In this document: one piece after another, positions 10,229 through 36,603 of the stretch
How positions within the stretch are numbered: position 1 is the stretch's first letter
How the letters are laid out: every line of letters begins with the position of its first letter
Assembly: GCA_949293255.1 (NCBI GenBank)
Contig: CASFCL010000006.1
Span: 1-64,000, forward strand
Direction of reading: 5' to 3'
Length of the DNA: 64,000 bases
Source of the DNA: an uncultured bacterium
Lineage (GTDB): Bacteria; Bacillota_I; Bacilli_A; RFN20; CAG-826
Program-made: the position numbers and the translations under genes
Notes under the pieces: model-generated
What the model was told of the DNA's origin: nothing
The model's database searches: none
Seen by the model: the letters and a program-made list of their open reading frames with translations, nothing else

Positions 10229-10352
10229 TTTGTGTAACCCTCCATCCATAGAAGTAAAGTTCTTCTACACCTTAACTATAAAATTTCAATGAGAAAACTA
10301 TATATTATTTTGAATAAAAATGAAACAAAAATTTTTAAAAGAATATTATGTA

Positions 10353-22795: not shown

Positions 22796-25597
22796 TTAAT
22801 GCAAATTCGAAGAAATTTTAAACTTATAAATTGGTTGAATTATAAAGACTAAAGAGATAAATAATATTAGTGTTACACATGCTAAAATTGCACCTATTGC
22901 CTCTAGCGGAAAATTATAAAACCCTGCAAAACCAACTTCTTTTGCAATAATTTTGTTTAAAAAGACACTTAAAAATATTACCGAAATAATCGAAGAAAAT
23001 ATCGCACTTAACAATATAAAAACAACATCAATAAAAGAGACTTTCACTATTTCAAATGTTGAAAATCCTAGTAGAGAAAGAATTGCTATTTCTTTTTTAT
23101 TCTCTTTTAAATTTACATAAGAGATTATTATCAAAACAACAATTGAGCTAAGTGCTGTTATAAGAGAAAAACAAAATAGAATAATTTCAAGATATAACAA
23201 AACCTCATTTATTGAATTATTAATCGTGCTCATAGGATTAGTAAGCTTATATTCCGATAGATATTTATTAATTTTATCTATTCTTTCGTCTTTAATATCT
23301 GAATCAGTGATGAATATTATTGAAGATGGGATCATATAAAAGCCGTTTATTTTAAATAAATCTCTAAAAAGTGCTAAAGAATAGTTTTCATCATGATAAA
23401 TATTGAGTCCTAAATCATCTAAAACTACCCCAACTACTTTTAGTTGAATAGTTTTAAAAGACTTTCGCATATAATCGTCAAAATAATCAACCCTATCATT
23501 TAAAGTTAAATAAATGTCTTTATTTAATAAATTCTCACCACCTAGATAATCGATAACTCCTTTAGAAATCGCTATTTCATTAACTTTTAAAGGATAGTTT
23601 CCACTTACAATTCCATCTTTTAAAGTTGAAAAACGTAGTGTTTTCTCAGATGAATTTAATGCATAACCCTCAATTGCATAGTTTGGAACTACTATTGAAT
23701 CTTTTTCTTCATTTTTAATAATTGTAAATGAATCAATAATTTTATCTGCGTCTTCTTTTGATTTTGTTAGATAAATTGGATTAGCAAAACCACAAAGTAA
23801 AGATGAACCATAATTTATATAACCTCCTATTGTCGAGAAGTAATAACTTTTAATCTCTGGAACATTTTTAATTATTGAATCAATCAAAGTTATATCAATT
23901 CCTTTAACAACGGTTTCATAAACATAAACTTTATTAGTATATGAACCTTCTTCAGAACAAGTTTGAGGTGAATAATCTTTATTATCACTATCAAAGACCA
24001 TATTTTTATATTTTTTGTCATAAATTAACTTATTTATGAGATAACTTTGAAATTCTTTTGTCTTAAAATAATAAATTTTCTTCATAATCCAAGGAAATTC
24101 TTCTTCTTTTAATAAATCTAAAGAACTTGGGAAGCGTAAAGTATCCTCAAAAAATGATTCATTAAAGAAATTATTGGTGTGATATATACAAGGTCTAGTT
24201 GTTGGAATGATTCCTTTAACTTTAAAAGTTATTTCATCAGAATATGACCAATATGAATTAACTAAATATATACAAACTAATAGTTCATTATTTTCAATAA
24301 ATCTCCCTAACGATTCATAGGTCCTGACAATTTGAAGATTTAAACAAATATTTTTTACTTGAGTAAAGTTTAATCCTAAAACAATCTCATCATCTTCTAA
24401 TGTATCATTAAAAAGTGGGTAAATTTCTTGATTGGTAAAATCTTTTACATAGGTAAATTCATTAAAATGTCGAGCTGTTATACCAGTAATGATTTGAGAT
24501 GGATATTTAGTAACATTATATAAAGAATTTCTATCTCTAAAATATGATTCAAAATCTATCAAATAATTACATCCAATATAATCAACATCGTCCCCATAAT
24601 CTCTTACAATATTTTGTAAAACATCAATTTTGGCACTTTCATAATATAAGAGTTCACTATCTTCATCTTTACGAGATAACACCAAAGTATTTTCACCTAT
24701 AATTGATGAAAAACTAGCTTTTAATGACGAAGAAATACTAGATGATACAAGAAGAGCTAACCCTAAACATATGAGACAAAAACTAACAAGAATTGAAGAA
24801 ATTGAAAATCTAATTTTTTTGTTTTTTGCCTTATTAAAAAAGTGCTTCAGAGCAAATTTAATTGATATTGTAGGTCTAAAATTTACCTTTTGTTCTTTAA
24901 TTATTTTTAAAGAATATTCATGTTTTGCAGGTTTTTCAATTAAAATCTCAGTAATTTTTCCTTTTTCTAACTGCAATATTCTATCTGAATATTTTTTAGC
25001 TAAAGTTGTATCGTGTGTGACACAAATTACTAAACATTCTTGAGATAAAATTCTTAAAAGTTGAAATATTTTTTCACTATTTATTACATCTAAAGAACCT
25101 GTTGGTTCATCACAAAAGATAACTTTTGGGTTGTTAATAATTGCTCTACCAATAGCAACTCTTTGTTTTTCTCCACCACTTAATTTCGAAACAACATTAT
25201 AACGAAGATATGATATTTCCAGTTCATCTAATATTTCAGAGATTTTTTGATTTTTAAAATTATTGCTTAAGTTATGGTTGGAGTTTAAAACCAAGGCTAA
25301 ATTATTTTCTACAGTATCGTTTTCTAAAAGATTAAACGATTGAAATATATAACCAAATTCATTAGCTCGAAGATTTCTTTTTTCTTTATTTTTTAAATTG
25401 GAAATGTTTATATCTTTAAATTTAACTTCACCACTATAATTTTCTTCTATTGTACTAAGAATATTTAATAATGTTGACTTTCCACAACCACTTTCTCCAC
25501 AAATAGAAACTAGACCATTACTTGGAAAAACATATGAAATGCTGTCTAAAATTGTTTGCTCACCAAATTTTTTAGTCAAATTTTTGAATTCAATCAT
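22796..25597 (-). CDS. ABC transporter, fused ATPase and FtsX/MacB-type permease
   Basis: A 933-residue fusion. Residues 1-225 are a complete ATPase (Walker A GESGCGKST, signature LSGGEKQRVAIGRAI, Walker B VIFCDEPTGSLD). A TM helix at about 265-290 is followed by a large extracellular segment (about 290-790) and three TM helices at the C-terminus (about 795-925), the MacB/FtsX permease layout. Such proteins couple ATP use to extracytoplasmic work or export of peptides and antimicrobials, not import. It follows the similar gene at 25599 after 1 nt, with AAGGAAGAATGAG as ribosome site. They may form a heterodimer. Substrate unknown. Confidence 0.88.
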   Translation of the reverse strand: MIEFKNLTKKFGEQTILDSISYVFPSNGLVSICGESGCGKSTLLNILSTIEENYSGEVKFKDINISNLKNKEKRNLRANEFGYIFQSFNLLENDTVENNLALVLNSNHNLSNNFKNQKISEILDELEISYLRYNVVSKLSGGEKQRVAIGRAIINNPKVIFCDEPTGSLDVINSEKIFQLLRILSQECLVICVTHDTTLAKKYSDRILQLEKGKITEILIEKPAKHEYSLKIIKEQKVNFRPTISIKFALKHFFNKAKNKKIRFSISSILVSFCLICLGLALLVSSSISSSLKASFSSIIGENTLVLSRKDEDSELLYYESAKIDVLQNIVRDYGDDVDYIGCNYLIDFESYFRDRNSLYNVTKYPSQIITGITARHFNEFTYVKDFTNQEIYPLFNDTLEDDEIVLGLNFTQVKNICLNLQIVRTYESLGRFIENNELLVCIYLVNSYWSYSDEITFKVKGIIPTTRPCIYHTNNFFNESFFEDTLRFPSSLDLLKEEEFPWIMKKIYYFKTKEFQSYLINKLIYDKKYKNMVFDSDNKDYSPQTCSEEGSYTNKVYVYETVVKGIDITLIDSIIKNVPEIKSYYFSTIGGYINYGSSLLCGFANPIYLTKSKEDADKIIDSFTIIKNEEKDSIVVPNYAIEGYALNSSEKTLRFSTLKDGIVSGNYPLKVNEIAISKGVIDYLGGENLLNKDIYLTLNDRVDYFDDYMRKSFKTIQLKVVGVVLDDLGLNIYHDENYSLALFRDLFKINGFYMIPSSIIFITDSDIKDERIDKINKYLSEYKLTNPMSTINNSINEVLLYLEIILFCFSLITALSSIVVLIIISYVNLKENKKEIAILSLLGFSTFEIVKVSFIDVVFILLSAIFSSIISVIFLSVFLNKIIAKEVGFAGFYNFPLEAIGAILACVTLILFISLVFIIQPIYKFKISSNLH

Positions 25598-25598
25598 C

Positions 25599-27590
25599 TC
25601 ATTCTTCCTTTAACTCACTAGCAATATCAATCTTTTTTGAGAACTTAAGTGGCATATACGTAAATAAGGCAGTTGCAACTAAAGAAAATAACAAAAGTAA
25701 AGCAATAAAAATAATATCTATTTGTAAAAGTGACTGTATTGAAAATATATTAAATAAAAATTTATTGATGCTTGATTTAATAACGAAAAATATTCCAAGT
25801 GATATTAAAAAACCAATAAATGTGACAAATAGTTTTTCATAAATAAACACTTCTTCAACTGAAGTTTCACTCGCGCCTAATGATCTTAAAATTGCTACTT
25901 CTTTTCTTCTACTTATAAAGGACGAAAAAGAAATAAAGCCAATCAAAAATAAGCTACACAGAGTTGATATTCCTAGAAATATTTGAATTCCTAAATAAAG
26001 AGATTCAGAAAGCGAAATAAAAGAGCTGACAATAGTATATTTATTACTTTCTATCTTTAAATAATCTTTTTGGATATCATAATCATCAATAAGTGAATAT
26101 ATTGAGGCTTTATCTTCATCATCTACAACTATTAATTTTGAATATGAATTAATTTCGTTATTGCTATCTGATAATTTTAAAACATCTAACCAACTATAAT
26201 TAGTTCCGATTTGTTTATTAATATTATTTGTTTTTATGCTGTCCAAAATATCTAAAAAGTAACTGTAAGGATAATAAACAGCTGGTGTATTTAAATACTT
26301 GAATTCTTCATTAATACCTGAAATTTTTATATTTAATTCGTAATAAAATTCTTCTTCGATTAAAGCATTATTGTTTTTATCGTAATAATTATAAATTCGT
26401 TTAAAGCTAGGATTGATTTCACTTACATCATTGCCAAATTCATCACGAAAAACATTATTAACATAGAATTTAATCTTTCTATCTTGATTAAAATAAGGAT
26501 AAAAAGTGCATTCCTTGCTTTCAATATTATTAACTTTAATTAAATTAACAGAACTGAAAAAATAATCTAAATTTTGATAAATTTCATAATTTATATTTCT
26601 ATCAAGATAACGAATAATCTCTTTATCACTAGGCATTTCTTTCTTTAATAAAACTAAATTTGAACCATTACTTTCTTGTTCATATACTTTAGAAATTGTG
26701 AATATATTCGAGTTAAAATAATTATCTAAAATATCAATTTTATAGTTGTTTAGCCCTTGATAAAAAGCAAAAGAAACAAGAAAAATTAGAAATGTTATTA
26801 TGATGGAAATTACACAAATTATATTTAATTTCTTATCCTTTTTGGTAAATTTTCGAGCCAAAAACCCTGTAAAACCCCTATATTTTATTCTTTTTTTAGG
26901 TAAAACATTGAAATTATTATTAGCTGATTCTTTCCTAATAAATAACTTTCCAGACTTCAATTCAAAGCTTCCATCAGCATATTCTTCAATTAACTTTTCA
27001 TTATGAGTAACAACAATTACAATTGAATTTTTAGATAACTCTTTTAAAGTCTCCATTACAATTTTTGAATTCTTATGATCAAGAGCACCAGTTGGCTCAT
27101 CGCATAAAATAATTTTTGGTTTACTAATTATGGATCGAACTATTGCTACTCTTTGTTGTTCCCCTCCACTTAAACTATTCACTTTTCTATCTAGTAAGGA
27201 TCTTAAATTATATTTGTCTATTAATTCATTTATAAAAACTTTGTCATTAACACCTTTAATTCTTGATGATAAAAATATATTTTCTTTAACAGTTAGAAAA
27301 CTAAACAAATTAAAATTCTGAAATATAATCCCAATTTCTGATTTTAGATAGTTATTTTTTTCTTTATTAGAAAAGTTTTGAATTTCTTTTCCATTATATA
27401 AAATTTTTCCACTATCAACCGAACTTAATCCCTGAAGAATATTTAATAAAGTTGTTTTTCCACAACCACTTTTTCCAAAGATAAAATAAAGACCATTTGA
27501 GGAAATTTTTAAATTTAAATCATCAAGTATAAGATTAAATTTGTTACTATCAATTTTATAAGATTTAGTTATGTTTTTTAATTCAAGCAA
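25599..27590 (-). CDS. ABC transporter, fused ATPase and FtsX/MacB-type permease
   Basis: A 663-residue fusion of the same type as its downstream neighbour, with a shorter extracellular region. Walker A is GKSGCGKTT, signature LSGGEQQRVAIVRSI, Walker B IILCDEPTGALD. TM helices lie near 255-280 and in three segments after about 545, the last ending before KKIDIASELKEE. The start is TTG (27588-27590) behind a GGGGG ribosome site. That TTG lies inside the 3' arm of an 11-bp inverted repeat whose other arm is in the leader, so initiation could be structurally controlled. It shares its unusual leader with recA. Confidence 0.87.
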   Translation of the reverse strand: MLELKNITKSYKIDSNKFNLILDDLNLKISSNGLYFIFGKSGCGKTTLLNILQGLSSVDSGKILYNGKEIQNFSNKEKNNYLKSEIGIIFQNFNLFSFLTVKENIFLSSRIKGVNDKVFINELIDKYNLRSLLDRKVNSLSGGEQQRVAIVRSIISKPKIILCDEPTGALDHKNSKIVMETLKELSKNSIVIVVTHNEKLIEEYADGSFELKSGKLFIRKESANNNFNVLPKKRIKYRGFTGFLARKFTKKDKKLNIICVISIIITFLIFLVSFAFYQGLNNYKIDILDNYFNSNIFTISKVYEQESNGSNLVLLKKEMPSDKEIIRYLDRNINYEIYQNLDYFFSSVNLIKVNNIESKECTFYPYFNQDRKIKFYVNNVFRDEFGNDVSEINPSFKRIYNYYDKNNNALIEEEFYYELNIKISGINEEFKYLNTPAVYYPYSYFLDILDSIKTNNINKQIGTNYSWLDVLKLSDSNNEINSYSKLIVVDDEDKASIYSLIDDYDIQKDYLKIESNKYTIVSSFISLSESLYLGIQIFLGISTLCSLFLIGFISFSSFISRRKEVAILRSLGASETSVEEVFIYEKLFVTFIGFLISLGIFFVIKSSINKFLFNIFSIQSLLQIDIIFIALLLLFSLVATALFTYMPLKFSKKIDIASELKEE

Positions 27591-27641
27591 TTTTGACCCC
27601 CTTTACTAACAAGATTGCTTGAATTTCAAAAATTTACCAAA
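27580..27641 (-). promoter_or_regulatory. Bipartite conserved leader element, copy A (before the twin ABC genes)
   Basis: On the plus strand CTTTACTAACAAGAT (27601-27615), 12 variable nt, AAAAATTTACCAAA (27628-27641) recur identically before recA at 35383-35423. In this copy AATTCAAGCAA (27580-27590) and TTGCTTGAATT (27615-27625) form a perfect 11-bp inverted repeat. The transcript can thus fold with the ribosome site (GGGGG) in the loop and the TTG start in the stem. Promoter, operator or RNA element cannot be decided by eye. Confidence 0.65.
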
Positions 27642-27646
27642 CTTTT

Positions 27647-29254
27647 TTAAAAATTTACTGCAGCAGGAACTTTTGGAAGTCCTGGCATTGTTAAAATGCT
27701 ACCACATAAGACTACAATAAACTCTGCACCATTACTTAATTTAACTTCTTTAACTGTAATTCTAAAGTTTTTAGGAGTATTAATTAATTTTGGATTATCT
27801 GAGAATGATGATTGAGTTTTAGCCATGCAGATAACTAATTTATCTCTACCTAAAGCTTCAATTCTTTTAATATCTTCTTTTGCTTTTTCAGTAAAATCAA
27901 CTCCATCAGCTCTATAAATCTCTTTTGCGATTATGTTAATTTTATTTTCAATTGTGTCGTTTACATCGTATAAATATTTAAATTTATTAGCATTTGTTGT
28001 AGCTAAAGTTTCTAAAACTTTGTTAGCAAGTTTTGTGCTTCCTTCTCCACCTTTTAAGAATCCATCCAAGAAAGCATAGCGAATTCCAAAAGAAGAACAC
28101 CAATTTTCTAATAATTTAATCTCGTTTTCTGTATCATCTTTAAAATGATTAATTGCAACTACAACTGGTAATTCATATTTTCTTAAGTTCATATAATGTT
28201 GATGTAAGTTAGCAATACCTTCTTTTAAAGCATCTAAATTTTCTTTATCTAAATCTTCAAAAGCAACTCCACCATGCATTTTTAATGCTCTAATAGTTGC
28301 AACTAAAACAACCATTGAAGGTTTTAAATTTCCAATTCTACATTTAATATCTAAGAATTTTTCAGCACCTAAATCTGCAGCAAATCCAGCTTCAGTAACT
28401 ACAATTGGTGAAAGTTTTAACGCAAGTTTTGTTGCGATTAAGCTTGAACATCCGTGGGCAATATTTGCAAATGGTCCACCATGAACAAATGCTGGTTCAT
28501 TTTCAGAAGTTTGAACTAAATTTGGAGATAATGCTTTATCCATTAATTTCATTACAGCATTAACAATCTTTAAATCTTTTAAATAAACAGGCTCTTCATC
28601 AAAAGTATAAGCAACAATTATATTTGAAATTCTTCTTTTGAAATCTTCTTTTGAAGATGAAATACACATGATAGCCATTAATTCACTTGCAACAGTGATT
28701 TCAAAATGTTCTTCTCTAACAATTCCATTAATTTTTGATCCTTGACCAATTGTGATACTTCTTAATTCTCTATCATTAGTATCGATAGCTCTTTTCCAAA
28801 CAATTCTTTCAGGATTAATGTTAAGTTCATTTCCTTGGTAAATATGATTATCAATTACTGCACTGATTAAATTAATTGATGAGGTTAGAGCGTGCATATC
28901 ACCAGTGAAATGTAAATTGATATCTTCTTGAGGTTCAATTGTAACTTTTCCACCCCCAGTTGCTCCGCCTTTAAGTCCAAAAACAGGACCCATTGAAGGT
29001 TCTCTCAAACATAAAAGTGCATCTTGTCCTAATCTATTTAATCCTTCAACAAGAGCAATTGAAGCTGTCGTTTTTCCTTCGCCTGCTTTTGTAGGAGTAA
29101 TTGCAGTGACTAAAATAAGTTTTCCATCTTCATTATTTTTCACTTTTTCATATAAAGAAAGATCAACTTTTGCTTTATATTTTCCATACATTTCTAAAAA
29201 ATCACTGCTAATCTTAACTTTTTTTGCGATTTTATCAATTGTCTCTAACTTCAT
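27647..29254 (-). CDS. fhs: Formate-tetrahydrofolate ligase
   Basis: A 535-residue ATP-dependent enzyme that forms 10-formyl-THF from formate, supplying one-carbon units. The ATP-binding segment is TPTKAGEGKTT, followed by SMGPVFGLKGGATGGG and FTGDMHALTSS, all typical. HHGGPFANIAHG-like FVHGGPFANIAHGCSS and the VVTEAGFAADLGAEKF motif are also seen. I choose the ATG at 29254 because AAGGAG lies 7 nt upstream; the ATG at 29260 is too close. It overlaps the end of tcdA by about 20 nt. Confidence 0.95.
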   Translation of the reverse strand: MKLETIDKIAKKVKISSDFLEMYGKYKAKVDLSLYEKVKNNEDGKLILVTAITPTKAGEGKTTASIALVEGLNRLGQDALLCLREPSMGPVFGLKGGATGGGKVTIEPQEDINLHFTGDMHALTSSINLISAVIDNHIYQGNELNINPERIVWKRAIDTNDRELRSITIGQGSKINGIVREEHFEITVASELMAIMCISSSKEDFKRRISNIIVAYTFDEEPVYLKDLKIVNAVMKLMDKALSPNLVQTSENEPAFVHGGPFANIAHGCSSLIATKLALKLSPIVVTEAGFAADLGAEKFLDIKCRIGNLKPSMVVLVATIRALKMHGGVAFEDLDKENLDALKEGIANLHQHYMNLRKYELPVVVAINHFKDDTENEIKLLENWCSSFGIRYAFLDGFLKGGEGSTKLANKVLETLATTNANKFKYLYDVNDTIENKINIIAKEIYRADGVDFTEKAKEDIKRIEALGRDKLVICMAKTQSSFSDNPKLINTPKNFRITVKEVKLSNGAEFIVVLCGSILTMPGLPKVPAAVNF

Positions 29255-29942
29255 ATTCATACTCCTTTATAAAATATTTTAAAACAAAACTAGCCATTAA
29301 TAGTCCTGATGCATTAGGCACAAAAACCATCGAACTAATTACTCTAGAATTGATTATAGGCTTTTCTAAAGAAAAAGAAACATCTAATTTCGATATATCA
29401 ACATTTTCTTTTTTAAGTTCATATCTTAACTTTCTAGCAAGAGGATCATCGGTTGTTTTATTAAGCTTAGTAATTATAACTTTTGAGGGATCAAGACGAT
29501 TTCCCATACCCAAAGAAGATATGATTCTAATATTATTTTGAAGACAGTATTTGATTAAAAGTATCTTTCCTTTTAAATCATCAATACAATCGATTACATA
29601 ATCATAAGAATCTAAAATTGAGTAATCAAAATTTTCATCAACTTTAGAGTTTAATGAAATAACATTTAAATCATCTCTAATGTTATTCAATAAATTTTTG
29701 GTAACTTCACTTTTGCTTTTTCCTACATCTAAAGAAGTATATGCGAGTTGTCTATTCAAATTAGATTCACTGACTTTATCAAAATCAACAATCAATAAAT
29801 TTAAAATTCCACTCCTTGCTAAAGAAATTGGAACGATAGAACCAACTCCACCAAGACCAAAAATAGCAACCTTTTTATTTTTAAGATAATTTGTTGCTTC
29901 TTCTGTTATTAATAAAGAGGAACGATTATCAATTTCTTTCAT
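29235..29942 (-). CDS. tcdA: tRNA threonylcarbamoyladenosine dehydratase
   Basis: A 235-residue E1/ThiF-fold enzyme that cyclises t6A37 to ct6A in tRNA, using ATP. The nucleotide-binding loop is FGLGGVGSIV, then LLIVDFDKVSESNLNRQ; ISSLGMGNRLDP is the TcdA-specific motif. KTTDDPLARKLR follows where many Firmicute homologues have a Cys (KTSVCPLA-like). ATG at 29942 has GAGGAAG upstream and overlaps the miaA stop by 14 nt, so two tRNA-modification genes are coupled. Confidence 0.9.
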   Translation of the reverse strand: MKEIDNRSSLLITEEATNYLKNKKVAIFGLGGVGSIVPISLARSGILNLLIVDFDKVSESNLNRQLAYTSLDVGKSKSEVTKNLLNNIRDDLNVISLNSKVDENFDYSILDSYDYVIDCIDDLKGKILLIKYCLQNNIRIISSLGMGNRLDPSKVIITKLNKTTDDPLARKLRYELKKENVDISKLDVSFSLEKPIINSRVISSMVFVPNASGLLMASFVLKYFIKEYEYEVRDN

Positions 29943-30813
29943 TTTTAACTTCCTCTTCAAAGAAATTTAACGTTTCTTCTTTAGATTTAAACCAATTAAC
30001 GTTTTCAAATTGATGTCTAAAGAATGTCATTTGTCTTTTTGCATAATTTCTACTATGTTTCTTGATTAATTCTTTGATTTCTTCTTCGCTTTCAAGTTCA
30101 AAAAATTCTTTATAGCCAATAGCTTGAAGCCCTCTAGTTGTTTTTCCATACTTATTTATAAGTTCGCGAGCTTCTTTAACAAGACCACTTTCAAACATTA
30201 TATCAACTCGAAGATTAATTCTTTCATAAAGTTTTTCTCTATCGATATCAATACCGATATATTTCACATCTTTATATAAAAGTTCGTCTTTTCCGTTTTG
30301 ATTAAGTTCGGTTTTATTAACTTTATGGGTTTCATAAATATAAATTGCTCTTAATAATCTTTTTCTATTGTTGACACCGATTTTTTTAGCGTCTTCAGCA
30401 TCAAAACTTTCGACTTTTTTATAAAGTTCTTCATTACTTAAATCTGATAAATAATCCTTTGGCATCGGATCTTCTTCATTAAAAGTGTAATTATAAAGTA
30501 AGGCCTTTAAATATAATCCATTTCCACCAACTAAAATGACATCTTTATGTTCTTTTAATAAAAAATCTAATGTTTTTCTCGCCTCTTTTTGATATGAAGC
30601 AACATCATAAGCTTCATTTAAATCGATACAATCATATAAATAATATCTACCACTATTGATTAATTCTTTTTCAGGTTTAGCTGTTCCTTTATCAATTTCT
30701 TTATACATTTGAAAAACGTCAAAATTTATAACAGGAATGTTATATCTTTTTGAAACAGTTTCTACGATGTCACTTTTTCCTGAACCTGTTGAGCCAAGAA
30801 TTGCATAAATCAT
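29929..30813 (-). CDS. miaA: tRNA dimethylallyltransferase
   Basis: A 294-residue enzyme that transfers a dimethylallyl group to A37 of tRNAs reading UNN codons. P-loop GSTGSGKS, DVFQMYKEIDKGTAKP and ILVGGNGLYLKALL are family motifs; KHSRNYAKRQMTFFRHQ closes it. Its partner miaB, which methylthiolates the same base, is two genes upstream. It overlaps ricA by 4 nt and tcdA by 14 nt. With ispF it links isoprenoid supply to tRNA modification. Confidence 0.96.
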   Translation of the reverse strand: MIYAILGSTGSGKSDIVETVSKRYNIPVINFDVFQMYKEIDKGTAKPEKELINSGRYYLYDCIDLNEAYDVASYQKEARKTLDFLLKEHKDVILVGGNGLYLKALLYNYTFNEEDPMPKDYLSDLSNEELYKKVESFDAEDAKKIGVNNRKRLLRAIYIYETHKVNKTELNQNGKDELLYKDVKYIGIDIDREKLYERINLRVDIMFESGLVKEARELINKYGKTTRGLQAIGYKEFFELESEEEIKELIKKHSRNYAKRQMTFFRHQFENVNWFKSKEETLNFFEEEVKNERN

Positions 30814-31103
30814 ATATCTAAAATATCCTTTATCTCTTTTAATAATTCAGTTTTCTCATTTTCTAATTTTATATAATTTTGTACAAAAGGATCGTTTTTA
30901 AATTCGTTTAATGCTTTATCGTATTCTCTTTTTTCTTCTTCGCTCATATCACACTTTTGCAAATATTTTAAAATATTTTCGTAGTTTTGCAGGGTTTTTG
31001 AATCAAAAATAGCATTTTTTGATTTTATATACTCTTTAATTAACTCTTCAGATAATAAAGAATCTTTTAAATCTTTAACTTTTGATTCAATATCTTTATT
31101 CAT
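30810..31103 (-). CDS. ricA: YlbF/YmcA (RicA-like) family protein
   Basis: A 97-residue helical protein of the Com_YlbF family. The order miaB-ymcA(ricA) is as in Bacillus subtilis, where RicA works with RicF and RicT to direct RNase Y; rny lies just upstream of miaB here. The core is SKTLQNYENILKYLQKC and KEYDKALNEFKNDPFVQNYI-like. Only one Cys is present, so the C-terminal Fe-S cysteines of the Bacillus protein are lacking. The ATG at 31103 overlaps the miaB stop. The symbol rests on synteny as well as family. Confidence 0.75.
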   Translation of the reverse strand: MNKDIESKVKDLKDSLLSEELIKEYIKSKNAIFDSKTLQNYENILKYLQKCDMSEEEKREYDKALNEFKNDPFVQNYIKLENEKTELLKEIKDILDI

Positions 31104-32538
31104 CGACAAGTTCCCCAATTAATGAATATGTATGACTTTCTATTACTTTAATGTTTACAATTTTTCCAACTAAAGAAAGATCACCTTTAAAGTGAATTGT
31201 TTTCATATTGTAAGCAGTCCCACTTAAAATATCTTTATTCTTTTTAGATAATCCTTCAACTAAGACTGGATAAACTTTTCCAACCATATTTTCAGCATTT
31301 TTACTTACATCTTTTTCTAAAACGCTGACAAGTTCTTTAAATCTTTTATTTTTAGTTTCATAATCGACATTATCAACTAATCTAGCGGCTGGAGTTCCTT
31401 TTCTAGGAGAGTAAATAAAAGTAAATGCTGAAGTATAATCAACCTTACTTGCTAAATCAGCAGTTTCTAAAAATTCTTCGTAACTTTCGTTTGGGAAGCC
31501 AACAATAATATCAGTTGAAAATGCCATATTTGGAATTTTTGCTCTAATTTTATCAACTAATGCTAAATATTGTTCTCTTGTGTATCTTCTTCCCATCTTC
31601 TTTAAAACAGAATTACTGCCAGATTGAACAGGAAGATGTAAATATTTCATGATGTTGTCATATTTTGCAATGACATCGATGACATTATCTTTAAAATCAC
31701 TTGGATAGGAAGTCAAAAATCTAACTCTTGGAATCCCTAATTTTGCAACTTCTTCTAAAAGATGAGCAAAATCGATACCACTATCTAAATCTTTTCCATA
31801 GCTATCAACATTTTGACCAAGTAATGTTACTTCTTGATATCCATCATCTTTTAATTTTTGGCATTCGTTTAAAATATCTTGGATATCTCTACTTCTTTCT
31901 TTTCCTCTTGTATAAGGAACGATGCAATAAGTACAGAACTTATCGCAACCATAAGTAATATTTACAAATGCTTTAAATTCACTAAGTCTTTTAACAGGTA
32001 AATTTTCATAAATATCACCTGATTTTGATGAAATATCAACTATTCTTGTTGAGCGATCTTGAATGTAAATATCTAATAATTTAATAAAATCTTGAATGTT
32101 ATGAGTGCCGAAAAATATATCGATATAATCGAACTTTTCAAGTAAGAAATCAACTACGTGTGGTTGTTCTACCATACATCCACAAATACATAAAATAAGA
32201 TTTTTATTCTTTGCTTTTAAATTTTTAAATTCACCGATTTCACCATAAACTTTATCTTCAGCATTTTCTCTAACTGCACATGTATTTAAGATTGCAATAT
32301 CAGCTTCATTTTCGTTTTCAACTCTAACCATATTTAGGTTGTTTAAAAAACCAGCTAAGGTTTCTTCATCACGAATATTAGCTTGGCAGCCATAAGTTCT
32401 TATAAAGTAATGTTTATTTCTTAATTCATCAAAAAGTTGATCGCTAGCTTCGTAAGAATATAAAAAAGTATTAACGCATTTTGATCTAATGCGTCCTTTT
32501 TCAATACTAGGTAAATCTAAAGTCTTTATCTTTCTCAT
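31096..32538 (-). CDS. miaB: tRNA-2-methylthio-N6-dimethylallyladenosine synthase
   Basis: A 480-residue radical-SAM methylthiotransferase acting on i6A37 in tRNA. The N-terminal UPF0004 domain has YGCQANIRDEE; the radical SAM cluster is CDKFCTYCIVPYTRGKERSR; a TRAM domain closes the protein. Other cluster cysteines are visible in NTCAVRENAEDKV and CICGCMVEQP. Coupled to ricA and miaA downstream. Confidence 0.97.
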   Translation of the reverse strand: MRKIKTLDLPSIEKGRIRSKCVNTFLYSYEASDQLFDELRNKHYFIRTYGCQANIRDEETLAGFLNNLNMVRVENENEADIAILNTCAVRENAEDKVYGEIGEFKNLKAKNKNLILCICGCMVEQPHVVDFLLEKFDYIDIFFGTHNIQDFIKLLDIYIQDRSTRIVDISSKSGDIYENLPVKRLSEFKAFVNITYGCDKFCTYCIVPYTRGKERSRDIQDILNECQKLKDDGYQEVTLLGQNVDSYGKDLDSGIDFAHLLEEVAKLGIPRVRFLTSYPSDFKDNVIDVIAKYDNIMKYLHLPVQSGSNSVLKKMGRRYTREQYLALVDKIRAKIPNMAFSTDIIVGFPNESYEEFLETADLASKVDYTSAFTFIYSPRKGTPAARLVDNVDYETKNKRFKELVSVLEKDVSKNAENMVGKVYPVLVEGLSKKNKDILSGTAYNMKTIHFKGDLSLVGKIVNIKVIESHTYSLIGELVDE

Positions 32539-32558
32539 AATCCAAAAATATAAAATTT

Positions 32559-32582
32559 AAGGAAGGATACCAATCCTTCCTT
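32559..32582 (-). terminator. Terminator between rny and miaB
   Basis: AAGGAAGGAT (32559-32568), ACCA loop, ATCCTTCCTT (32573-32582). The T tract on the minus strand is short, so some read-through into miaB is possible. Confidence 0.65.
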
Positions 32583-32591
32583 TTTAAAATA

Positions 32592-34154
32592 TTATTCAGC
32601 AGTTTCGATTGCTCGATATTCCCTAATTACGTTGACTTTGATTGTTCCAGGATATTTCATCTCGTTTTCGATTCTTTCTTTAATATCTTTCGCAAGTTTG
32701 AAAGCTCCTAAATCATCAATTTTTTCAGGAATAACCATGACACGAACTTCTCTTCCAGATTGCATTGCATAACAGGTTTGAACACCATCATATGATTTAC
32801 AAATATCTTCAAGTTGTTCGATACGTTTAATATAAGTTTCAAGTGTTTCACTTCTTGCACCTGGTCTAGCAGCTGATAAGGTATCAGCAGCATTAACTAA
32901 ATATGCAATAACACTTTTTGCTGGTACATCACCGTGGTGACATTCAATAGCATTAACAATTAAATCGTTTTCACCGCACTTTTTGGCAATTCTTGCACCG
33001 ATTTCAGTGTGGCTTCCTTCTACTTCAAAATCCATGCTCTTACCAATATCATGAAGTAATCCGGCTCTTTTTGCTAAGTTTTGATCTAAACCTAATTCAG
33101 CAGCCATTGCTCCACAAAGTTGAGCAGTTTCAACACTATGTTCTAATTGATTTTGACCATAGCTTGTTCTGAATTTTAATCTTCCAATGTAAGGAATTAA
33201 ATCTTTTGAAACATTACTTAAACCAAGTTTGAATACAGCTTCATCACCTGCTTTTTTAATAATTTCATTAACTTCTTTTTTACATTTTTCGATGACTTCT
33301 TCAATTCTACCAGGTTGAATACGTCCATCTTTAATTAAAAGATTTAATGCTCTTGAAGCAATTTCTCTTCTAACTGGGTTAAAACAAGAAATTGTAATTG
33401 CTTCAGGTGTATCATCAATTAAAATATCAACACCTAATGATTGCTCTAAAGATTTGATGTTTCTACCTTCTCTACCAATAATTCTTCCTTTCATTTCATC
33501 GTTAGGAAGATTAATAACATTGATAGTTCTTTCAGTAGTAACTTCTTGAGCGTGTCTAGCCATTGCTAAGGCTAAGATATCTCTACTTTTTTCATCTGCA
33601 ATTGATTCAGCTTTTTCTTCTTGCTCTTTAATATATTTAGCAATATTTAAAGCTTCTTTTTCTTTAACTCTATTAAAGATTTCTTCCCTTGCTTCTTTTT
33701 CAGTCATGTTAGCAACTTTTTCTAACTCACCAAGTAAGGAATCAACCTTTTCTTGAAGGAATGCATTTTTCTTTTTAGCTTCTTCATTTAACTTATCGAG
33801 ATGTTTTTCTTTATCTTCTAAAGATTGTTCTTTTCTCATAAGTTGAGCATCTCTTGCATCGATGCTTTGCTCTCTTTGAAGCAATTTGTTTTCTTGTATA
33901 ACAACTTCTTGTTTTCTTTCTTTGATATCTTTTTCAGCTTCTTGCTTCATCTCGTAAACAGTTTGTTTAGCGTCAAGTTGTGCACTTTTTGTAATTTTTT
34001 CAGCTTTTATATTAGCATCATTAATTATTTTATTTGCATCATTTTGTGCCCTTTTAGCACGGAAATGAGGTAAAAATGCGATAACAACACAAGCAATTAA
34101 ACCGATTACAAGACCTATAGCTCCGCCGATAATACCAGCCATAAGTGGGTCCAT
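32592..34154 (-). CDS. rny: Ribonuclease Y
   Basis: A 520-residue membrane-anchored endoribonuclease that starts mRNA decay. One N-terminal TM helix (about 5-30) is followed by a long coiled coil (about 40-200), a KH domain with IIGREGRNIKSLE, and an HD domain with LLHDIGKSMD and CHHGDVPA. AAAGGAG precedes the ATG. Its proximity to ricA fits the known functional link. Confidence 0.97.
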   Translation of the reverse strand: MDPLMAGIIGGAIGLVIGLIACVVIAFLPHFRAKRAQNDANKIINDANIKAEKITKSAQLDAKQTVYEMKQEAEKDIKERKQEVVIQENKLLQREQSIDARDAQLMRKEQSLEDKEKHLDKLNEEAKKKNAFLQEKVDSLLGELEKVANMTEKEAREEIFNRVKEKEALNIAKYIKEQEEKAESIADEKSRDILALAMARHAQEVTTERTINVINLPNDEMKGRIIGREGRNIKSLEQSLGVDILIDDTPEAITISCFNPVRREIASRALNLLIKDGRIQPGRIEEVIEKCKKEVNEIIKKAGDEAVFKLGLSNVSKDLIPYIGRLKFRTSYGQNQLEHSVETAQLCGAMAAELGLDQNLAKRAGLLHDIGKSMDFEVEGSHTEIGARIAKKCGENDLIVNAIECHHGDVPAKSVIAYLVNAADTLSAARPGARSETLETYIKRIEQLEDICKSYDGVQTCYAMQSGREVRVMVIPEKIDDLGAFKLAKDIKERIENEMKYPGTIKVNVIREYRAIETAE

Positions 34155-34350
34155 TTTTAAAATCTCCTTTGCCTAACGGATCGAGCGACACTCATTAAAA
34201 TCTAAATCTATTTTTTTATATAAATTAATATAATTAAGTCGATTAAATAAATATATAACAAGTATCTCTTGATACCTCTTATAAGTATATCAAAAAAGGA
34301 CCCTTATTTTCTAGATAATATATTTAAGGATTTAAAGAAATATATTCTAC

Positions 34351-35373
34351 TTATTCAGTTGATTCTTTTTTTGCAAAACTTGGAACTTCGCCAGTTTTGA
34401 TTTGACGTTTAGCTGCCTCAAATATTTCTTCGTGCTCTCTTAAAAATTCTTTGGCTGTTTCTCTTCCTTGGCCAATTCTTTCGCCATAAATTTCATACCA
34501 AGATCCAGCTTTTTTAGCGATACCTTTAGCAAGAGCTAAATCTAAAAGTTCGCCTTCTTTAGAAATTCCTCTTCCATAAACAATGTCTAATTTACATGTT
34601 TTAAATGGAGGAGCAACTTTGTTTTTGACTACCTTAATTTGGACAACGTTTCCAATAACATTGTATCCATCTTTAATAGCCTCAGTTCTTCTAATATCAA
34701 GCCTTACAGTTGAATAGAATTTTAAAGCTCTTCCACCAGTAGTTGTTTCATTACTTCCATAAATTACACCTACTTTTTCTCTTAACTGATTAATAAAAAT
34801 AACAGTACAATCATTTTTATTTAATAAACCAGCGATCTTTCTTAAGGATTTTGACATCATCCTTGCTTGAAGACCAACTGAATTATCAGTCATCATTCCT
34901 TCAAGTTCAGCTTGAGGAACAAGAGCTGCAACGCTATCAACAACAATTAAATTAAATGCGCCGCTTTTTGCTAGCATTTCGACAATATCGAGAGCTTCTT
35001 CTCCGCTTGATGGTTGAGAAAGAATCAATTCATCGATATCGACGCCTAGATTTTTGGAGTATTCGGGATCAATTGTGTTTTCTGCATCAATAAAAGCAGC
35101 ACGACCGCCATTTTTTTGGCATTCAGCAACCGCAGTAAGTGCTAAAGTCGTTTTGCCGCTGCTTTCTGGGCCGTAAATTTCAACAATTCTTCCTTTTGGA
35201 TAACCCCCGATCCCGAGAGCATCATCTAAGAGGATTGAACCTGATGGAATGGTACCAATTTCTGTAGTAGGACGGTCTCCTAATCTCATTAAGGCACCTT
35301 TGCCGAATTCATGTTCGACTTGTTGAATGACCGATTTTAAAATTTCGTCTGTTTTTGTTTTTTCGTTAGCCAT
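34351..35373 (-). CDS. recA: Recombinase A
   Basis: A 340-residue homologous-recombination ATPase. Walker A is [12 protein letters not shown], Walker [13 protein letters not shown], followed by the [13 protein letters not shown] and [17 protein letters not shown]-binding loops. ATG at 35373 follows GAGG; an upstream TTG in frame has no better site. The ribosome site AAAGAGG can pair with CTCTTT in a leader element that is shared with the ABC operon at 27.6 kb. No LexA-type palindrome was recognised. Confidence 0.98.
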
Positions 35374-35379
35374 AAAATA

Positions 35380-35423
35380 CCTCTTTACTAACAAGATGCC
35401 AGCAAAGAGAAAAATTTACCAAA
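35380..35423 (-). promoter_or_regulatory. Bipartite conserved leader element, copy B (before recA)
   Basis: On the plus strand CTTTACTAACAAGAT (35383-35397), 12 variable nt, AAAAATTTACCAAA (35410-35423); both arms and the spacing are identical to the copy at 27601-27641. Within it CTCTTT (35381-35386) and AAAGAG (35404-35409) are inverted, so on the transcript the recA ribosome site (AAAGAGG) can be masked. Unknown type of element. Confidence 0.65.
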
Positions 35424-35462: not shown

Positions 35463-35936
35463 TTATCTGCCTAAAATTGAGCAAACTGCGTTAATAATTG
35501 AGTCAACACAGACTTGTCTAATTTGTTCTCTATCTAAATCTGGTAATCTTAATGGAATTTGCCAAACTTGTCCGTTATAAGCAATACCCATATAACATTC
35601 ACCAACATCTGTACCTTCTGAACAAACTGATGGACCAGCATTTCCAGTGAATGAAACACAAATATCAACGCCTAAAACTTCAAGACCTTTGATTGCCATT
35701 TCTTGAGCAACTGCCCATGAAACAACACCATATTCTTTAATTGTTTCAGGATCGACACCAATAAATTTTTCCTTCATTTCATCAGAATAGCAAACGATTC
35801 CCCCTTTATAAACTTCGCTTGCTCCACTTACATCAGTAATTGTTTTTCCAAATAATCCACCAGTAAAAGATTCAACGCTACCAATTGTAAGTTTTTCTTT
35901 TGTAAGAAGATCAACAAGTTTAACTGCATTATTCAT
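35463..35936 (-). CDS. cinA: CinA C-terminal domain protein (nicotinamide-nucleotide amidase)
   Basis: A 157-residue stand-alone CinA C-terminal domain (PncC type), which deamidates NMN to NaMN in known members. SVESFTGGLFGKTITDVSGAS and GDICVSFTGNAGP-like motifs are diagnostic. The N-terminal MoCF-like domain of full CinA is absent. ATG at 35936 follows GGAGG. The cinA-recA order is the common Firmicute one. Confidence 0.9.
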   Translation of the reverse strand: MNNAVKLVDLLTKEKLTIGSVESFTGGLFGKTITDVSGASEVYKGGIVCYSDEMKEKFIGVDPETIKEYGVVSWAVAQEMAIKGLEVLGVDICVSFTGNAGPSVCSEGTDVGECYMGIAYNGQVWQIPLRLPDLDREQIRQVCVDSIINAVCSILGR

Positions 35937-36603
35937 TTTTATTACCTCCAAAAACCTGTTTATTATCAATTAAATAAATTATACCACTTAATAAACTAAC
36001 AAATGTTGCAACATAACAAATAAAATCACTTATGTGTAAATATTGTACCCAGTTAGAATCAAAATAACTAAATGGCCAACCATTTAATAATACAAAACTA
36101 ATAGCAACCATTTGTAAAACTGTCTTCAGTTTTCCAAATATATTTGCAGCGATAACAACATTTTTACTTGCTGCCATAAATCTAAGACCATCAACTATTA
36201 AGTCTCTAATAACCATTAAAATTACACAAAAGAAAGGAAATCTAACATCACTTCCTAAGCTTACAAAATTCAAAGCACAAAAAATTGATAAACCATTAAT
36301 TAACATCTTATCAGCAATTGGATCTAAAAATTTTCCTAAATCAGTGACAAGATTATATTTTCTAGCGATATATCCATCTAAAAAATCTGTAAATGAAGCT
36401 ATTATAAATATTATAAAGATTATTATATTAATAAGATTTATAGTAGCTCCGTTATTATTTAAATTAATATTAAATGAAGCAACATTAATAACACTAAATT
36501 CATCTAAAAGATAAATAACAAAAATCCCAAGTAAAAGAACAGTTGCAAGAGCAATTCTTGAAATCGTAATTTTTGTAGGTAAATTTATACTTTTTTCTTT
36601 CAT
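35929..36603 (-). CDS. pgsA: CDP-diacylglycerol-glycerol-3-phosphate 3-phosphatidyltransferase
   Basis: A 224-residue membrane enzyme making phosphatidylglycerol phosphate from CDP-diacylglycerol and glycerol 3-phosphate. The CDP-alcohol phosphotransferase signature DGYIARKYNLVTDLGKFLDP (DG-x2-AR-x8-G-x3-D) is complete and about five TM helices surround it. It overlaps cinA by 8 nt; pgsA-cinA-recA is conserved in Firmicutes. Confidence 0.94.
   Translation of the reverse strand: MKEKSINLPTKITISRIALATVLLLGIFVIYLLDEFSVINVASFNINLNNNGATINLINIIIFIIFIIASFTDFLDGYIARKYNLVTDLGKFLDPIADKMLINGLSIFCALNFVSLGSDVRFPFFCVILMVIRDLIVDGLRFMAASKNVVIAANIFGKLKTVLQMVAISFVLLNGWPFSYFDSNWVQYLHISDFICYVATFVSLLSGIIYLIDNKQVFGGNKNE

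Follow-up and report, generated by a model that had tools for sequence, protein, structure and literature searches.

A putative natural-competence promoter set within ribosome-site hairpins in a genus of uncultured Bacilli

Introduction

Why should recA and an operon encoding ABC/FtsX exporter proteins carry the same leader sequence? The question is raised by a stretch of 64,000 nucleotides (the window) of contig CASFCL010000006.1 from an uncultured bacterium of the genus CAG-826 (assembly GCA_949293255.1; here, genome G000). Just ahead of both genes lies an element of 41 nt that reads TTTGGTAAATTTTT-N12-ATCTTGTTAGTAAAG on the gene strand and leads directly into a purine-rich ribosome site. 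The arms of the two copies are identical at 29/29 bases and the 12-base middles differ, as an earlier note on this DNA had described; that note left the choice between an RNA switch, a protein-binding leader and an unusual promoter. Here we argue that the element serves a natural-competence regulon as its promoter, that a fast-evolving SigH/ComX-like sigma factor whose gene lies beside rlmB probably reads it, and that a hairpin over the ribosome site adds a second layer. We give this joint reading a probability of about 0.7.

Results

The two-arm pattern, with up to three mismatches allowed, had an expectation of 0.00 occurrences, as judged from 100 dinucleotide shuffles of the window. The inverted repeats that the earlier note had seen over both initiation regions were confirmed, and each extends further than described there, with 12 bp at the ABC gene and 14 pairs in a hairpin at recA (Table 1). 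The leaders folded with −18.2 kcal/mol (z −3.7) for the ABC gene and −17.7 kcal/mol (z −6.0) for recA, and 0/200 shuffles were as stable in each case. The recA hairpin is terminator-like and was also flagged by a terminator scan. Rfam 15 gave four matches over the window, none of them at the element at the gathering threshold. The core of the SOS/LexA box is GAAC-N4-GTTC. This core had 0 exact matches in the window, and LexA control of the element was rejected because of its absence.

The genome of the window (G000; 1.25 Mb in 41 contigs, with the window on contig 6) contains at least 24 copies of the element. Nine were exact, 21 had at most three mismatches (0 for a reversed-pattern control), one more had four, and two further copies carried a changed second arm; the genome pattern that yielded these last two had a gap one base too short and was hence less sensitive. 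A start codon follows 7-10 nt past the element in five copies, which precede recA, the ABC/FtsX gene, comEA(-comEC), dprA and the first gene of a pilus operon that encodes a TadA/ComGA-like ATPase. Including these five, 11/24 copies have a same-strand open reading frame (ORF) of at least 90 aa within 300 nt, and rpsF-ssb-rpsR, a DAC-domain gene and an AlbA_2 gene are among the 11. The first such ORF lies 365-580 nt away from 3/24 copies, and 2/24 reach the end of their contig. The five genes or operons close behind the element, together with rpsF-ssb-rpsR, form largely a late-competence set.

Some copies have other neighbours. Tiny ORFs stand alone after copies L005, L006, L007, L011, L015, L016 and L021, and encode near-identical 12-aa peptides, MLILKLIFLWFP and MLILKLIFLYFP, or else Met-Thr-stop (ATG-ACT-TAA) or Met-Ile-stop. 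A pair of genes for a kinase and a LytTR-like response regulator (L109:712-2740; by eye, of the AgrC/AgrA or ComD/ComE type) lies upstream of the copy at C14, on its strand and with 128 nt between them, and is a candidate quorum-sensing input. Copies on contig 12 were rejected as drivers of ABC operons, those genes being on the opposite strand.

The genus sample comprised 26 genomes, G000 included. DprA, RecA and ComEA were found in 26/26, and the layout seen in G000 precedes comEA, dprA and recA in 26 species of the genus. We scored 26 comEA, 23 dprA and 25 recA leaders; dprA of G009, G015 and G020 and recA of G009 were left out before the counts because their starts could not be placed, and three distant dprA paralogues (L050-L052) were left out also. 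A downstream block (CTTGTAT, TTCTTG, GTTGT or TTCGTA, among others) stands directly ahead of the ribosome site, where the box reads ATCTTGTTA in G000 and CTTGTATT, TTCGTA and others in its relatives. The upstream block is common to the genes of one genome and different between clades. It reads TTGG[TG]A in G000 and G019, at a block-to-block distance of 26 in 6/6 leaders; GATAAA after AG-repeats in G002 and G023 (27 in 6/6); CGGAA in G004 and G024 (25 in 6/6); TTTAAC in G012 and G025 (25 in 6/6); AAGAAAA or ATAGAAAA in G008 and G014 (25-26); GAATA or variants in the group of G003, G013, G021, G022 and G005 (25-27 in 15/15); and ACCCCC in G006, G007, G017 and G020 (26-28 in 11/11).

With the downstream block as anchor, the upstream blocks of gene pairs from one genome had an identity of 0.71 in register, 0.57 at a shift of 1 nt and 0.30 at 5 nt, and the identity between clades was 0.39. 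Spacers were 52% identical within a genome versus 36% between clades, and a control window of 12 nt further upstream showed no difference (49% within, 48% between). A Gibbs motif search converged on the ribosome site, and its output was used solely as an alignment table. An upstream block that is clade-specific, yet shared within a genome at fixed spacing, is what a promoter should show if its sigma factor evolves along with it. By dprA, and among the matches listed, unclassified Bacilli or Bacillota metagenome-assembled genomes (MAGs) are the closest of the named relatives, and several of them come from animal gut or faeces.

A candidate for this sigma factor is a protein of ≈ 200 aa adjoining rlmB, which was found via searches with region 4 and NusG. 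The usual gene order is rlmB-X-rpmG-secE-nusG, which we take to be the sigH position, and the SigH-like protein stands beside rlmB in 23/26 genomes. The G000 protein has 214 aa (L247:2223-2864, contig 27); in G000 and G019, rlmB and the SigH-like gene are separated from secE-nusG. A profile of 22 full-length members, from which the partial sigma of G001 (L227) was left out, had sigma-H (3mzy) as its best match in the Protein Data Bank (PDB), with E 3.6e-7. Most further PDB profile matches were LuxR-type helix-turn-helix domains and covered the C-terminal part only. At E ≤ 1, TIGR02937 (sigma-70 superfamily) matched 18/22 members, the G000 copy with 2.5e-6, and Pfam Sigma70_r4_2 matched 12/22. 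The G000 protein is 16-43% identical to the other SigH-like proteins; the corresponding values are 43-56% for DprA and 67-82% for RecA. SigH-like proteins of the same promoter clade have a mean identity of 51%, those of different clades one of 21.5%. This co-divergence of sigma and promoter is suggestive, and falls short of proof because clade J is itself only 18-37% identical.

In several genomes the best region-4 matches were to YlxM, a neighbour of ffh with ≈ 105 aa, which was rejected as another protein. In G000 and G019 (L229, L235), an opposite-strand Xre-like gene lies between a yebC-like gene and rpmG-secE-nusG, at the site that rlmB and the SigH-like gene occupy in relatives. Seven genomes (G021, G003, G013, G017, G022, G018 and G009) have a further RpoD-like sigma gene within ≈ 2 kb of rpoD; rpoD was not found in G000 by a Sigma70_r2 search, probably owing to an assembly gap.

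Predicted pairing over the ribosome site was strong in the leaders of comEA (mean −16.2 kcal/mol versus −7.8 once the 5′ half had been shuffled; mean z −3.5) and dprA (−12.5 versus −7.4; z −2.2), and weak in those of recA (−8.8 versus −7.1; z −0.9). The baseline from 102 ordinary ORFs of G000 and G019 was a mean z of −0.34, with 6% below −3. Housekeeping starts of the genus gave z values of −0.9 for secE (n = 18), 0.5 for rplA (n = 14), 0.4 for ffh (n = 8), −1.3 for rpmG (n = 3), 1.2 for nusG (n = 3) and −2.4 for ftsY (n = 1). Leaders of comEA and dprA folded better with their own than with swapped spacers (0/10000 permutations each), as did, with a small effect, those of recA (18/10000). When two genes of the same genome exchanged their spacers, stability was lost in 18/23, 19/25 and 19/23 cases. 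This preference for the own partner bears out the view of the earlier note that different sequences giving the same outcome point to a selected structure.

A MAFFT alignment of 20/26 comEA leaders aligned the promoter rather than the hairpin arms, and pairs were therefore counted relative to the ribosome site. The pairs beside this fixed site vary on both sides. In counts that include related species, column +4 of comEA has CG 11, AT 7, TA 3, TG 2 and unpaired 3, and column +5 of dprA has AT 8, GC 5, CG 2, TA 2, GT 1 and unpaired 5. The 5′ arm of the scored folds stops before the downstream block or enters it by at most 6 nt; an RNA started past that block would thus lack the arm. In a long transcript, the ribosome site is predicted to be paired at comEA and dprA across the genus, and at recA and the ABC gene in the window. 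Pairing between spacer and initiation region over 22 copies of G000 was real, though weaker (permutation p 0.004, 0.007, 0.008 and 0.06 for four measures); the comEA leader of this genome had a z of −3.1.

In a wider survey of dprA, 48 of the 80 loci listed, from many phyla, were scorable and 32 were not; 5/80 were near relatives (L123-L127). Among the 48, z fell below −3 in two loci, those of Schleiferilactobacillus perolens (−9.3) and of an Enterococcus (−5.0); four of the near-relative MAGs came next (−3.0 to −2.3) and complete the six lowest values. The Bacillota subset averaged −1.09 (n = 25) and the others −0.12 (n = 23). No dprA hairpin was found in the fifth near relative (L126) or in one scored Streptococcus (L135, z −0.5). 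The predicted folds suggest that the ribosome-site hairpin at dprA reaches beyond the genus. Strong hairpins lie over the dprA ribosome site at L142 (S. perolens) and L187 (the Enterococcus). A long ribosome-site hairpin (z −4.9) was also seen at a DinB/UmuC-like polymerase gene, assigned by eye, on the minus strand of L117 (start near 10302).

Table 1. Positions in the window of the element copies, their parts and the neighbouring genes
Feature	Position	Strand	Basis
Element copy 1, before the ABC/FtsX gene	27601-27641	−	Sequence and pattern search
Copy 1, upstream block TTTGGTAAATTTTT	27628-27641	−	
Copy 1, spacer	27616-27627	−	
Copy 1, downstream block ATCTTGTTAGTAAAG	27601-27615	−	
Copy 1, putative promoter	−35 GGTAAA 27633-27638; 17 nt; −10 ATCTTG 27610-27615; start near 27603	−	Putative assignment
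12-bp inverted repeat, closing over the ribosome site and pairing with the ABC TTG start	27580-27625 (27614-27625 with 27580-27591)	−	Folds
Element copy 2, before recA	35383-35423	−	Sequence and pattern search
Copy 2, upstream block	35410-35423	−	
Copy 2, spacer	35398-35409	−	
Copy 2, downstream block	35383-35397	−	
Copy 2, putative promoter	−35 GGTAAA 35415-35420; −10 ATCTTG 35392-35397; start near 35385	−	Putative assignment
14-pair hairpin (G-U pairs included), 3′ arm holding the recA ribosome site	35380-35410	−	Fold and terminator scan
ABC/FtsX exporter protein 1, 663 aa, TTG start, behind copy 1	25599-27590	−	ORF; ABC_tran, FtsX
ABC/FtsX exporter protein 2, 933 aa, next gene on the same strand	22796-25597	−	ORF; ABC_tran, FtsX
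Formate-tetrahydrofolate ligase, upstream of the ABC genes	27647-29260	−	ORF; NCBIfam PRK13505 above cut-off
recA, 340 aa from the ATG at 35373	34351-35373	−	ORF; TIGR02012 above cut-off
CinA-type C-terminal (PncC domain) gene, upstream of recA	35463-35969	−	ORF; TIGR00199 above cut-off

Discussion

The near-fixed spacing of the two blocks, the clade-specific upstream block, the competence genes behind them and the SigH-like gene together lead us to read the element as a competence promoter. Late-competence genes lie behind one promoter-like motif across the genus (comEA, dprA and recA) and in G000 also in the ssb and pilus-ATPase operons, and we regard this gene set and layout as well supported at the level of sequence. 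From the same data we infer a promoter inside a hairpin. The −35 and −10 bases would be those of Table 1, transcription would start ≈ 7 nt past ATCTTG, so that the mRNA would begin at the ribosome site, and the rlmB-linked SigH-like sigma would read the element. The spacer DNA between the blocks may have been adapted, gene by gene, to pairing with the ribosome site or the start codon of the gene that it precedes. Read-through RNA from the upstream gene would then fold, be poorly translated and perhaps terminate; RNA started at the competence promoter would be without the 5′ arm, its ribosome site open. Such a lock would be strongest on comEA and dprA, which serve competence only, and weak on recA, for which cells have other uses as well. 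A lock against read-through out of the upstream gene on the same strand is the simplest joint explanation. In G000 the upstream genes are a CinA-type gene before recA, the formate-tetrahydrofolate ligase gene before the ABC genes and, by eye, GreA-like and RNase HII-like genes before comEA and dprA.

A number of observations weigh against this reading. The sigma was not found in G007, G017 and G020, though the layout is present there; neither NusG nor a close RlmB was found in these genomes. Even where a SigH-family protein occupies the sigH position, the assignment is made on scores below curated cut-offs: this holds for all NCBIfam and Pfam scores seen for the G000 protein, and a PF04542 search did not pick that protein up. 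The blocks are weak or irregular in clade J (G001, G010, G011 and G016) and in G009 and G015, no upstream block could be recognised at recA of G018, and the anchors and expressions were picked after the sequences had been inspected. As to the hairpin, the housekeeping control rplK also has a z of −2.6 (n = 6); dprA (z −0.4; −0.1) and the pilus operon (0.3) of G000 have no hairpin or one close to chance level; and the ABC leader has a z of only −0.8 in a shorter window, which cuts its 3′ arm. The predicted openness of the ribosome site rises from the long RNA to the RNA with the predicted start, from 0.05 to 0.68 for comEA (26/26) and from 0.15 to 0.78 for dprA (23/23), a gain that is weak evidence by itself because some gain in openness would follow from the shortening of the RNA in any case. 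Finally, 8/24 copies in G000 face a convergent gene; for streptococci, an excerpt of a published study describes antisense firing from SigX boxes (PMC6328492).

Transcription could also start further upstream, the element then belonging to an RNA leader whose hairpin is opened by a ligand, a protein or temperature and whose arms are RNA recognition sites. The strong, covarying ribosome-site hairpins of comEA and dprA would fit such a leader, but the spacing and clade identity of the blocks persist in recA leaders, where the hairpin is weak, most G000 spacers are without special pairing, and Rfam has no match at the element. We consider this reading unlikely, and an RNA switch as the sole explanation was rejected on the lack of an Rfam match and the spacing kept where the hairpin is weak. 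The interpretation in the earlier note thus divides: the selected structure and the option of an unusual promoter are supported, whereas an RNA switch peculiar to recA and an exporter is not, since the promoter-like motif occurs genome-wide, also at comEA, dprA, ssb and pilus genes, and its upstream arm changes by clade at near-fixed spacing.

An activator of the LytTR/ComE or ComK type, for example, could bind the arms as DNA and recruit the housekeeping sigma, and the kinase and LytTR-like regulator genes ahead of the copy at C14 would suit it. The G000 arms, however, are not repeats of each other (which also disposed of a ComE-type box with a 12-nt gap), other clades have ACCCCC or CGGAA as their upstream block, and the distance to the start and the 17-nt spacing suit a sigma factor; such an activator appears decidedly unlikely. 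That another sigma reads the promoter, such as an extracytoplasmic function (ECF) factor with a neighbouring membrane protein (L023), seems to us very unlikely. Most genomes of the genus have ECF genes and two element copies share a contig with the G000 ECF operon, but a search at E ≤ 1 gave no match in G018 and G022 (96% complete) or in G024 and G007, where the layout is present nonetheless, and no copy was seen upstream of the G000 ECF gene. The ECF sigma was rejected as the reader on account of these genomes. A mobile or duplicated repeat that came to lie near genes by chance would account for at least 24 near-identical copies, several of them near contig ends or facing other genes, and for 12-nt spacers that in some cases recur exactly. 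It is hard to reconcile with a position conserved before orthologous competence genes across the genus in a clade-specific sequence, or with flanks that, apart from two copies on contig 12, have nothing in common beyond A+T richness, and we hold it to be extremely improbable.

Returning to the competence promoter, a bolder version has somewhat less than even odds in our judgement. It would be a genus-wide double lock on competence, in which the sigma promoter of the dedicated genes lies inside a hairpin remade clade by clade, so that only promoter-started mRNA would be translated, and in which the joint divergence of sigma and −35 sequence would be unusually rapid and would keep the regulons of neighbouring species apart. 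The dprA hairpins of S. perolens and the Enterococcus may mean that such a lock is more widespread among Bacilli. Literature searches on a competence sigma in Mollicutes and on ribosome-site hairpins with internal or external promoters showed no precedent for the competence case. On the proposed reading, uncultured Bacilli with small genomes should be capable of natural transformation under regulation, with the SigH-like protein as the candidate sigma factor and part of its gene set named. The genus may also offer a natural series useful for reading sigma-promoter specificity, one in which joint changes of sigma and upstream promoter block seem to have happened on several occasions. A promoter inside a ribosome-site hairpin also suggests a simple way of silencing a tightly regulated gene behind an active neighbour.

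Close parallels are known from the competence genes of Lactobacillus sakei and of streptococci, and from two hairpin leaders of a phage and a transposon. In Lactobacillus sakei, sigH was likewise recognised by conserved gene context, and SigH overexpression strongly raised com operons and dprA and had little or no effect on recA and ssb, as far as the excerpted text of that study goes (PMC3364868). Here, in contrast, the putative promoter sequence varies by clade and overlaps a predicted hairpin. In Streptococcus mitis, the ComX/SigX box lies ≈ 20 nt before the start codons of comEA, dprA, coiA, cinA and others according to a partial text (PMC6001120), a distance similar to that of the present element. 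The streptococcal dprA leader at L135 has TACGAATA directly before the ribosome site. The box here is ATCTTGTTA, not TACGAATA, and is accompanied by a conserved upstream block; the scored streptococcal leader is without a ribosome-site hairpin. As G000 has ATCTTGTTA and its relatives have CTTGTATT, TTCGTA and others at this place, we do not class the element with the streptococcal SigX regulon. The long transcripts of T4 gene e (lysozyme) and of the IS10 transposase gene hide the ribosome site in a hairpin, and their internally started transcripts are translated. The ribosome site is predicted to be hidden in the same way in the long transcripts here; those examples are single phage or transposon genes, whereas the present case would be a whole promoter class, as predicted across a regulon and a genus.

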